Source: Methanobacteriota archaeon (lineage in GTDB: Archaea; Halobacteriota; Methanosarcinia; Methanosarcinales; Methanosarcinaceae). From it: a DNA stretch of 47,720 bases. The DNA lies in the NCBI GenBank assembly GCA_030054735.1, contig JASGVX010000045.1:1-47720 (forward strand). The letters are read 5' to 3'. The notes below the pieces were generated by a model. That model was not told the DNA's origin. It saw only the letters and a program-made list of their open reading frames with translations, and did not search any database. The number at the start of each line of letters is the position of its first letter. Within the stretch, counting starts at the first letter, position 1. A program made the translations under genes and the position numbers. Below, piece after piece: positions 10,778 through 26,004 of the stretch.

Positions 10778-11899
10778 ATGTATGACGTAATCATCATAGG
10801 TGGTGGACCTTCCGGAGCCTCGGCCGGAAGAAGGGCAGGAAAACTTGGGCTTAATACGCTATTGCTTGAAAAAGAAGAATTCCCAAGATACAAACCCTGC
10901 GGAGGAGCTCTTTCGAGACATGCGATTTCTTACCTTGATTTCGAGCTCCCCCAGGATATTATTGAATGGAAAGTTACAGGTGCCCGGATCTCTTTCAGGG
11001 GACAGACAATTGAAGCACACAAAGACCATTGTCTCTCCATAATGGTCTCACGGGATGTTTTTGATAACTTCCTTCTCGAAAAGGCAAAAGAGACAGGAGT
11101 CAAAGTGCACACCGGTGAAAAAGTTCTTCAATGTGTGGAATCTCCTGAATGTGTGGAGGTCACGACAGAAAAAGGGACATATCAGGCAAGGTTTGCAATC
11201 ATTGCTGAAGGGGCACATGGACTTCTCAAGACCTGTGTAAGGCCTGTAGATAGTGATGAAAACAATAGAGTCTGTGTTGTTGCCGAAGTTCCGGCTGAAG
11301 AAAAGGAGATCAAAGAGAGGCTCGGCAGAACTGTATATATATATTTCGGAATTGCTGATGGCGGTTACGGCTGGATTTTCCCTCACAAAACTTATTACTC
11401 AGTTGGAGTCGGAGGGCTCATTAAAGATCTTCCTCACCCCAAAGAAACCATGCTTGAGTTTCTAAAATCTAACGGTTTTACCGGCGATTACAAATTAAAA
11501 GGGCACAAAATCCCAAATGGCGGGGTTAAACGAAAGATAACAGGCCCAAGGGTCCTTCTGAGTGGGGATGCCGCAGGGTTCGTAGACGCTTTTTTAGGTG
11601 AGGGGATTGCTTATGCCATAAGGTCGGGGCAGCTTGCTGCTGAAGTAATTGCCGGAGTTTGTCAGAATGACAAGACAAAAGATCTAAAAAAGTATGAGTC
11701 TCTCTGTCAGGCCGAATTCGGAACTCACCTTAAGTATTCCCTTATATTTTCCAGAATCATGCACCGCTTCCCTGAGAAGACGTTCAAAATCTTCACGTCA
11801 AACAGCAAAATGATTGATAAATACTTTGAGGTTGTAGACTACACAGTCGATTACAAGGATTATTTGCGCTGGTCATTACTGAATTTCAAACTGAGGTAA
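10778..11899 (+). CDS. Geranylgeranyl reductase-family FAD protein (copy 1)
   Basis: Flavoprotein of the geranylgeranyl reductase / digeranylgeranylglycerophospholipid reductase family, which saturates prenyl double bonds. The N-terminal Rossmann motif GGGPSGASAGRRAG (residues 8-21) binds FAD. PRYKPCGGAL (about 37-46) has the conserved Cys region. GGYGWIFPHKTYYSVGVGG (about 200-220) is the family's YxWxFP motif, and GDAAGFVDAFLGEGI (about 262-276) is the second flavin-binding motif. 373 residues, normal length. GAGGGTG is placed 8-12 nt before the ATG and a TATA-like element lies near 10723. Substrate is not readable from sequence: archaeal lipid chains or the methanophenazine side chain are both possible given the hdrED neighbourhood. 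Confidence 0.85.
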   Translation: MYDVIIIGGGPSGASAGRRAGKLGLNTLLLEKEEFPRYKPCGGALSRHAISYLDFELPQDIIEWKVTGARISFRGQTIEAHKDHCLSIMVSRDVFDNFLLEKAKETGVKVHTGEKVLQCVESPECVEVTTEKGTYQARFAIIAEGAHGLLKTCVRPVDSDENNRVCVVAEVPAEEKEIKERLGRTVYIYFGIADGGYGWIFPHKTYYSVGVGGLIKDLPHPKETMLEFLKSNGFTGDYKLKGHKIPNGGVKRKITGPRVLLSGDAAGFVDAFLGEGIAYAIRSGQLAAEVIAGVCQNDKTKDLKKYESLCQAEFGTHLKYSLIFSRIMHRFPEKTFKIFTSNSKMIDKYFEVVDYTVDYKDYLRWSLLNFKLR

Positions 11900-11915
11900 T
11901 TAAAGGTGCCTTGAT

Positions 11916-13064
11916 ATGTACGACCTAATTATAGTTGGAGGAGGGCCTTCCGGAGCTTCTGCCGGGAGAAGGGCAGGCTAGCTTGGCCTTAATACCTTAC
12001 TGCTTGAAAAAAAAGAATTTCCCAGATATAAGCCATGTGCCGGGGGGCTTTCGACTCGTGCTCTTTCTTACCTTGATTTCGAGCTTCCTCAGGATATTAT
12101 TGAACGGAAGGTCACGGGATTAAGGGGGATTTTCAAAAATCAGATGATTGAAGTGCACAAGGATCATAGTATAGCTTTTCTGGTGTCTCGATGGGTTTTT
12201 GATAAGTTTTTATTAGAAAAAGCAAGAGAAACCGGAATAAAAATTCATACTGGAGAAAAAGTTTTAAATTGTGTGGAGAAACCCGAATTCGTAGAAATAA
12301 CTACAAAAGAAGGAACTTATCAGGCGAAATTTGCTATTATTGCCGAAGGGGCACATGGAGTTCTCAAAACCTGTGTCAGGCCTGCAGACAATGAGGACGA
12401 ATATAGGGTCTCTCTGGTCGCCGAAATCCTGGCTGATGAAGAAGAAATCAAAAAATCTTTTGGTAGCGCTGTTGAAATACACTTTGGGATTGCACCCGGA
12501 GGGTATGGCTGGATTTTCCCTCACAGGAATTATTACTCGGTGGGGATTGGGGGGATTGCTAAGGGTTTTCCTCATCCAAAAAAGATAATGCTTAAGTTTC
12601 TAAGAGATAATGGCTTTACAGGGGATTACAAATTAAAAGGGCATAAAATTCCCCTGGGCGGAATTAAGCGAAATGTTTCCGGTTCCAGAGTTCTTCTGTG
12701 TGGGGATGCTGCAGGATTCGTAGATGCTGTTTCAGGCGAGGGGCTTGCTTATGCCATAAGTTCAGGACAGTTTGCTGCTGAAGTGATTGCTGGCCTACAC
12801 GGCGGAAACATAAAGGACCTGAGCGAATATGAATCTCTTTGCCAGAGAGAGTTTGGAACTCACCTTAAGTATTCCCTTGTTTCTTCCAGATTAATTCATA
12901 GATTTCCGGAAATCTCTTTCAATATGGCCATAAACAACAGAGAAATTCTGAGTAAATGCCTTGATGTTGTGGATTCGAGTATTGATTATAAGGCTTATTT
13001 TTTCTGGTCATTAAAGGTGTTCCCTCACGTTTTCCTCAGAAAGTTAAAATCAGGTTATCAATAA
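11916..13064 (+). CDS. Geranylgeranyl reductase-family FAD protein (copy 2) with in-frame TAG
   Basis: Tandem paralog of the preceding gene, starting 16 bp after it behind an AAAGGTG ribosome site. From ATG 11916 one frame runs 382 codons to TAA 13062-13064 with a single interruption, TAG at 11979-11981 (codon 22). Copy 1 has AAA (Lys) at the aligned position: GRRAG-K-LGLNTLLLE versus GRRAG-TAG-LGLNTLLLE. Everything else is intact, including GGGPSG, PRYKPC, GGYGWIFPHRNYYSVGIGG and GDAAGFVDAVSGEGL. Differences from copy 1 near the TAG are largely synonymous, suggesting selection on protein. Methanosarcina inserts pyrrolysine, a lysine derivative, at UAG, so this may be a pyrrolysine-containing reductase; the alternative is a recent nonsense mutation. 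ATG 12144 could only give a fragment without the FAD motif. Confidence 0.75.
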
Positions 13065-13106: not shown

Positions 13107-13474
13107 GTGCGAGTGAGGCGTGTAAGCTCCCTTCTGTTCCTGCAAAGCTTTCTTACACCCACCAGTTTAAGAAATGGCCCCGAAGGACTCTTGCAGCGAC
13201 GGCATTCGGCTAAGCGTTACCAAAACCAATCGGGTGATTCCGGACTGCTCGTTCTTCCCGATTTCCAACTTGCACCCACGAGGATTCGCCGTTTCATCCA
13301 CTCTCCCTGTGACCTCAGCTTATGGCATCATCGCATTTGCAGGGGATGGTTATCGTTTCTGTGCCAGGGCCCGGGCTCTCGCCCGACATCCTTTACAGAT
13401 GTTCGTGTGTCCGGAGCGGTGGGGAGACTTTCCTCAGACCTGAAGGTCCGGCAGCCGTCCAGCCTCTCTCGCAC
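13107..13474 (-). ncRNA. rnpB: RNase P RNA (archaeal)
   Basis: RNA component of ribonuclease P, which trims 5' leaders of pre-tRNAs. Read on the minus strand, the 5' end GUGCGAGAGAGGC (13474-13462) pairs with the 3' end GCCUCACUCGCAC (13119-13107) as the P1 helix with one mismatch. GAGGAAAGUC at 13435-13426 is the conserved region I signature and ACAGAAACGAU at 13362-13352 is the conserved region IV signature; the two lie at the usual distances. The 368-nt length and the GC-rich block in AT-rich surroundings fit archaeal type A RNase P RNA. Several long open frames on the plus strand here are artefacts of the GC-rich RNA. Confidence 0.93.
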
Positions 13475-13800: not shown

Positions 13801-13995
13801 TGGATAAGGGGCAGTATAAAATCAAACATCAAAGAATGATTAGAAGTAGGAATTGTTTTAAAGCAGGACCAGAGAACCGGAAAAATTACCCGGGGCGTTG
13901 TAAAAAGAATTTTAAACAACTCTTCGACCCAAGCTCATGGGGTCAAAGTTCAGCTGAGAGATGGGCAGGTCGGAAGGATTAAGGAAATTTATTAA
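13801..13995 (+). pseudogene. YwbE-like (DUF2196) pseudogene
   Basis: The plus-strand frame reads, after an in-frame TGA at 13837-13839, LEVGIVLKQDQRTGKITRGV and continues to a DGQVGRIKEIY end at TAA 13993-13995. This is the YwbE/DUF2196 family, a small protein of about 60-65 residues of unknown function. The in-frame codons upstream (RGSIKSNIKE) match the usual N-terminus except that the expected Pro-Gly became Glu-stop. The only ATG (13800) is out of frame, and the conserved HPHG reads QAHG. I call it a decayed copy; a frame from ATG 13800 gives only a shadow peptide. Confidence 0.75.
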
Positions 13996-24715: not shown

Positions 24716-24717
24716 AA

Positions 24718-26004
24718 ATTTCAACAGAAGATAAAACGGAATCCGAAAACAGGGTAATTCTAGTAAAGAGGACAAACCCTCGGGCTGACCCTGAACGCAG
24801 CAAACATCTTTTTAAGGAACTGAGAGAGCTTGCAAAAGCCGCAGGCTATGTCACTGCAGGAGAGCTTACCCAGACAAGGTTTCCTGATTCAAGGTATCAG
24901 CTTGGGAAGGGAAAGATAGAAGAGCTTGCAGAACTTGTGAGGCAGAAGAAAGCCGGAAAGGTAATTTTCTATAACAGGCTTTCCACAATTCAGCTTTTTA
25001 ATATCTCGGAAATCTGCGGGTGCCAGGTAATAGATAAGTTCCAGCTTATCCTTGAGATTTTTGCAAAAAGGGCTACCACACGCCGCTCCAAATTGCAGGT
25101 TGAACTTGCCAGGCTCAGGTATGAAGTCCCAAGGGCAAGAGCTATTGTTTCCCTCGTGAAAAAAGAGGAAAGGGCAGGTTTTATGGGACTTGGGGACTAT
25201 GAGGACTCCTACGAACAGGACTTAAAGAAAAGGATAATAAGGATTGAAAGTGAACTTGAGTCCGCCGGAAAAGACGATGAGTCTCTGCGGGCTTTCAGGC
25301 ACAGGAAAGGCTTTTCTCTTGTCGCTCTCGCAGGCTATACCAATGCTGGAAAAAGCACACTTTTCAATGCTATTGTTGATGAAAGCGTTAAAGCCCAGAA
25401 TACGCTTTTTACAACCCTTGTTCCAACCACGCGGGCCCTTGATCTGGGCGGAAGAAAGGCCCTTTTGACAGATACCGTGGGGTTCATAGAGGAGCTTCCA
25501 CACTGGCTTGTTGATGCCTTTAAGTCTACCCTCGATGAGATTTATCTCTCTGACCTTATCCTGCTGGTAGCCGATGTAAGCGAAAACCCCGAGATAATCC
25601 TGCAGAAACTTTCCACATCCCACGATACTCTCTGGGACCGCATCCGGGGGGTTCCCGTAATCACAGTGCTAAACAAAACGGATCTTCTTGATGAATCCAA
25701 ACTTGAAGCCGTCATGGAAAAAATAGGCTATATGGCTCCTAATCCCATATTCGTTTCTGCAAAAGGAAAAACCGGCATGCAGGAATTAAAAGATGAAATT
25801 ATCAAACATCTCCCTGCCTGGTCTTTCTATTCTTTTTCTCTTCCTAATTCGAAAAAAGGGATGTCGATTCTCTCCTGGCTTTACGATGAAGGCATTGTAC
25901 ACAGGGTTGAATATGGAGAGCGGATTTTAGTGGATTACGAAGCCAGAACAGATATCATCAACAGGATAAAGTCTCTGGAGCTGTGTCCTGATGAGCAAGG
26001 TTGA
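24718..26004 (+). CDS. hflX: HflX-family ribosome-associated GTPase with apparent AUU start
   Basis: GTPase of the HflX family, which binds the large ribosomal subunit and can split stalled ribosomes. The N-terminal domain includes RFPDSRYQLGKGKIEELAEL (about 57-76) and 'KFQLILEIFAKRATTRRSKL'. The G domain has G1 GYTNAGKST (about 207-215), G3 DTVGF (about 252-256), and G4 NKTD (about 318-321). The N-terminal domain is encoded from about 24718, yet the frame from the stop at 24700 to GTG 24937 contains no ATG, GTG or TTG. GAGG at 24707-24710 is 7 nt before ATT 24718, so I infer an AUU start. A GTG 24937 start would remove over 70 residues of family-conserved sequence. Confidence 0.85.
   Translation: MSTEDKTESENRVILVKRTNPRADPERSKHLFKELRELAKAAGYVTAGELTQTRFPDSRYQLGKGKIEELAELVRQKKAGKVIFYNRLSTIQLFNISEICGCQVIDKFQLILEIFAKRATTRRSKLQVELARLRYEVPRARAIVSLVKKEERAGFMGLGDYEDSYEQDLKKRIIRIESELESAGKDDESLRAFRHRKGFSLVALAGYTNAGKSTLFNAIVDESVKAQNTLFTTLVPTTRALDLGGRKALLTDTVGFIEELPHWLVDAFKSTLDEIYLSDLILLVADVSENPEIILQKLSTSHDTLWDRIRGVPVITVLNKTDLLDESKLEAVMEKIGYMAPNPIFVSAKGKTGMQELKDEIIKHLPAWSFYSFSLPNSKKGMSILSWLYDEGIVHRVEYGERILVDYEARTDIINRIKSLELCPDEQG

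Follow-up and report, generated by a model that had tools for sequence, protein, structure and literature searches.

A private in-frame amber codon in a geranylgeranyl-reductase-family gene of Methanosarcina and its possible tolerance through pyrrolysine decoding

A tandem reductase gene with one internal TAG

The window analysed here, the whole 47,720-nucleotide stretch of contig JASGVX010000045.1, carries two tandem genes of the geranylgeranyl reductase family, GG1 and GG2, the second of which contains an in-frame TAG (Table 1). Translation of positions 11916-13064 yielded no other stop and no frameshift across the whole frame, bearing out the original prediction of a 382-codon gene intact but for a single TAG. 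Also in agreement with that prediction, the tandem paralogue has Lys where GG2 has the TAG, and the two copies are identical around codon 22 apart from this Lys/TAG difference (GRRAG-K-LGLNTLLLEK). Both proteins score above the cut-off of TIGR02032 (NCBIfam) and match the Pfam family FAD_binding_3, and membership of the reductase family is supported by 238.6 bits for TIGR02032 (cut-off 158.8) and 28.3 for GGR_cat, PF22578 (cut-off 27). The solved relatives closest by sequence include an archaeal digeranylgeranylglycerophospholipid reductase, and the family is represented by structures 3oz2 and 3atq. GG2 thus shares with the geranylgeranyl reductase family the FAD-binding Rossmann N-terminus and the GGR_cat domain but differs from it in having UAG at codon 22; the enzymes of the array are assigned by family only, not by substrate. 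The GG2 protein is 64-82% identical to full-length homologues of the same clade in Methanosarcina. Judged from its sequence, GG2 is real coding sequence both before and after the TAG.

Table 1 Features of the reductase locus and of the genes added by the stop scan
Feature	Location	Strand	Remarks
GG1, intact geranylgeranyl-reductase-family paralogue	10778..11899	+	373 aa; codon 22 AAA (Lys)
GGTG, possible Shine-Dalgarno element	11905..11908	+	7 nt 5' of the GG2 ATG; found by eye
GG2, geranylgeranyl-reductase-family gene	11916..13064	+	382 codons; single internal TAG; TAA end
In-frame TAG, codon 22 of GG2	11979..11981	+	C-terminal end of helix 1, FAD-binding Rossmann fold
Earliest ATG-started ORF 3' of the GG2 TAG	12144..13064	+	306 aa; without the FAD GxGxxG motif
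nrdG2, anaerobic ribonucleotide reductase activase	C72 (L130):13722-14495		TAG at 13884, codon 55; TIGR02495 (NCBIfam)
DUF1614 membrane protein gene	C4:29885-30595 (L192)		TAG at C4:30119; private

Start codons (ATG, GTG or TTG) are absent across the 54 codons 3' of the GG2 TAG, and reinitiation at 12144 would give no intact FAD domain because the GxGxxG motif is missing from that ORF. The AlphaFold model of GG2 is poor overall (pLDDT 51) and good over residues 1-30, and was therefore used only to place residue 22, which closes the first Rossmann helix of the model and comes after the GxGxxG motif. A stimulatory RNA structure or PYLIS-like hairpin was sought 3' of the GG2 UAG and was not found (fold z = +1.95). 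Such a structure is not required for UAG read-through.

Orthologues of GG2 are present in few of the 31 genomes, and copies of the array have decayed in relatives by a frameshift in G017 (L048 5143-6254) and by many stops in G018 (L049 5151-6237), while the copy in G002 is split. GG2 is probably an accessory and redundant gene, dispensable beside its close paralogue. Two further features of the window were recorded. An archaeal RNase P RNA (RF00373, 202.9 bits) lies directly 3' of GG2 on the minus strand, at 13111-13470. At 24716-26004 is an ORF resembling HflX by eye, whose frame runs about 73 codons 5' of its first GTG (24937); this extension contains no ATG, GTG or TTG and may reflect ATT or another rare start, or a frameshift.

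Decoding of UAG in the host

The host genome is that of a Methanosarcina (2.88 Mb in 149 contigs, 99.4% complete) and is probably metagenome-assembled. The presence of pyl genes in the host, which the original prediction had named as a check, was confirmed: a complete cassette comprising PylS (447 aa), PylB, PylC, PylD and tRNA-Pyl (CUA) is found on contig C139. In addition, mttB and mtbB contain one in-frame TAG each. Because an intact pyl cassette accompanies these TAG-containing methyltransferase genes, the host is considered to decode UAG as pyrrolysine. No CUA tRNA besides tRNA-Pyl was found in 1.75 Mb (61%) of the genome. Although this genome has MttB, MtbB and the pyl cassette, MtmB (PF05369) was not found in it, reflecting either a real loss or an assembly gap. 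A flavoprotein-like gene near the pyl cluster (C139, about position 1113 of L038, minus strand) carries a TAA and a frameshift and is a pseudogene.

Within the same 1.75 Mb, TAG terminates 46 of 1184 confident ORFs (3.9%). UAG is therefore ambiguous in this genome, not reassigned, and a genome-wide pyrrolysine code was rejected. Some archaea read all TAG codons as pyrrolysine; they resemble the reading proposed for GG2 in that UAG stands for pyrrolysine outside the methyltransferases, and differ from the present host, in which TAG retains its meaning as a stop.

Codon 22 among homologues and selection on the reductase frame

Codon 22 was compared in 51 full-length homologues taken from 27 other genomes of the genus, and neither TAG nor any other stop occurred at this position (0/51). 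The codon is mostly Lys (AAA or AAG), and Arg, Ile, Met, Glu and Ser also occur. The nearest orthologue of GG2, from Methanosarcina sp. UBA402 (82% identity), has AAA, and the remaining members of the GG2 clade, from four genomes (G030, G028, G004 and G026), have AAG. The TAG is one transversion away from AAG and two changes away from AAA. These codons therefore indicate that the TAG arose late, at a tolerant site and in this lineage only: a UAG confined to a single lineage at a variable residue, as in Thg1. The proposed change from Lys to UAG is thus upheld, the homologues having a sense codon that is usually Lys, while the conservation of UAG for which the original prediction had suggested looking is not seen in any other Methanosarcina homologue read.

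Selection was estimated with a branch codon model of our own scripting, similar to GY94. The terminal GG2 branch has a dN/dS of 0.22 compared with 0.147 elsewhere, a difference that is not significant (LRT 1.8), and neutrality is rejected for this branch (LRT 15.7); values up to about 0.4 lie within two log units, and a model with more free branches gives 0.18. These values describe the whole branch, the parts before and after the origin of the TAG taken together. Of 131 columns that are otherwise invariant, one bears a private change in GG2, compared with 0-4 in intact copies. GG2 has been under purifying selection over most of its branch. The statements that the differences between the copies are mostly synonymous and that the protein has been kept by selection hold accordingly, the former for the branch as a whole. 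Two signs had been named in advance as counting against a use of pyrrolysine here, a TAG present in this genome alone and a relaxed dN/dS; the first is what was observed, and the second was not.

The main rival explanation is that GG2 is a nascent pseudogene, in which the TAG is the first inactivating lesion of a redundant gene and read-through is irrelevant to fitness. Such a course would fit the privacy of the TAG, the scarcity of orthologues among the 31 genomes and the decayed array copies in G017, G018 and G002, and the codon model leaves room for a neutral last part of the branch (dN/dS to about 0.4). Neither further lesions nor relaxed selection were detected in GG2, however, and its private changes are no commoner than those of intact copies. 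We consider this explanation possible but doubtful, also in view of a second gene described below.

Other genes interrupted by a single TAG and the reading of the GG2 amber

Since tolerance and decay are not distinguishable from a single gene, 1.75 of 2.88 Mb (61%) of the genome was scanned for genes intact but for one stop. The scan recovered mttB and mtbB, which served as positive controls, together with GG2, and added nrdG2 and a DUF1614 gene (Table 1). In the scanned 61%, no clear case emerged of a non-mobile gene left near-intact but for one TAA or TGA. The TAA and TGA matches that were set aside comprised tandem genes, an IS200 transposase with TGA (L113:174; a mobile element), the flavoprotein gene with TAA (L038:1113; a frameshift as second lesion) and a TAA candidate in a repeat protein (L085:4358). 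With one-step mutational opportunities of 0.386 for TAG, 0.383 for TAA and 0.232 for TGA, three TAG genes against no clear TAA or TGA gene correspond to P of about 0.06. That all three are TAG is weak evidence for tolerance, suggestive only, and the excess would be diluted by counting the TAA in the repeat-rich protein. A homology-based repeat of the scan, covering about 23 places, added nothing.

The two added genes differ in what they indicate. In the DUF1614 gene, the TAG occupies a conserved Tyr codon (Tyr in 13 relatives), and the branch is relaxed (dN/dS 0.51 vs 0.15 in the background, LRT 6.0), as in a pseudogene, so this gene may be decaying. In nrdG2, codon 55 is Glu, Asp or Lys in 15 relatives, matches without a stop are present in 30 of 30 other genomes, and the branch dN/dS of 0.21 equals the background. 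The gene is single-copy, nothing else in the host genome exceeding the NrdG2 cut-off, and is preceded by an intact nrdD (L130:11295-13679), which was identified from its sequence and location rather than through a family search. The host genome yielded no ribonucleotide reductase of class I or II, and nrdD is the only ribonucleotide reductase detected; a weak class I/II match on C143 was rejected as low-complexity sequence. Since the TAG interrupts the radical-SAM domain downstream of the CxxxCxxC motif, neither fragment of nrdG2 is expected to work. Because the gene is single-copy, stands beside an intact nrdD and has no other reductase class to back it, its UAG probably must be read, and nrdG2 itself is probably essential. 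It is a stronger argument for tolerance than the count of three TAG in three genes, and a lesion of the same type in a core single-copy gene is not easily explained by pseudogenisation.

A consensus error or a minor-strain variant in the draft assembly, with AAG or AAA in the living population, is improbable. The 149 contigs of a probably metagenome-assembled genome, and the fact that a single base would suffice if the parent codon was AAG, leave some room for it, but three independent errors would each need to have produced TAG. Moreover, the background of assembly errors looks low, since a frameshift scan of the 1.75 Mb gave 11 candidate places, mostly dubious, and ordinary genes near-intact but for one TAA or TGA were not seen. 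That pyrrolysine at residue 22 is itself selected for a structural or chemical role is highly improbable: the usual residue is Lys, of which pyrrolysine is a derivative, and the frame is conserved, but the UAG is conserved in no orthologue, the site accepts six different residues, and its place is past GxGxxG, where the first Rossmann helix ends.

We therefore favour, at a probability of about 0.58, a recent and near-neutral change from Lys to amber in GG2, tolerated through partial read-through by Pyl-tRNA in the manner of Thg1. A mutation would have turned Lys codon 22 into UAG at a position that accepts many residues. At this UAG, tRNA-Pyl (CUA), charged by PylS, would compete with the release factor, and part of the UAGs would be read as pyrrolysine, giving some full-length protein. 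Such partial read-through would weaken selection against the UAG and may let the mutation persist. We infer pyrrolysine decoding at codon 22, as well as its efficiency and the function of the product, from these comparisons. Nothing indicates that pyrrolysine is selected or chemically active in GG2, because the UAG is not conserved. Of the original reading, the host machinery, the selection on the frame and the Lys homologues thus stand, while a conserved or selected use of pyrrolysine is not supported.

Amber read-through in pyl-positive methanogens has been described chiefly for methyltransferases and a few odd genes. MttB, MtbB and MtmB resemble GG2 in that a pyl-positive methanogen encodes them in a long open frame with a single in-frame UAG, but their UAG is conserved and places pyrrolysine in the active site, whereas that of GG2 is private and falls at a tolerant site. 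The closer likeness is Thg1, the tRNA-His guanylyltransferase of M. acetivorans, a precedent that makes UAG in a non-methyltransferase less unexplored than first supposed. Like GG2, Thg1 is not a methyltransferase, its UAG is private to one Methanosarcina species, its homologues have sense codons, and its host has pyl genes. Pyrrolysine has been physically observed in Thg1, whereas its presence in GG2 is deduced, and GG2 differs from Thg1 in its close paralogue and probable dispensability. Pyrrolysine in Thg1 is not essential for activity, and its UAG has been described as neutral evolution (PMC2933860, citing Heinemann 2009); the same neutral drift has been proposed for other genes (PMC3639795). 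An introduced UAG in an M. acetivorans reporter was read through at about 20-30% (PMC2933860).

A wider possibility, which we put forward tentatively and consider rather unlikely, is that several private ambers have drifted into ordinary genes including nrdG2, that DNA precursor synthesis needs tRNA-Pyl, and that growth on every substrate has come to require pyrrolysine. If true, this would amount to an 'addiction' to the expanded genetic code and might bring full reassignment of UAG a step nearer. Provided that the TAG of nrdG2 is genuine, this Methanosarcina should be unable to do without the pyl system, and private ambers that include a probably essential gene would allow a direct test of whether pylT is dispensable. 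Amber-interrupted genes of this kind are likely to be mis-annotated as pseudogenes or as split genes, and a genome in which three or more ordinary genes carry a private amber would show an ambiguous codon moving toward reassignment.
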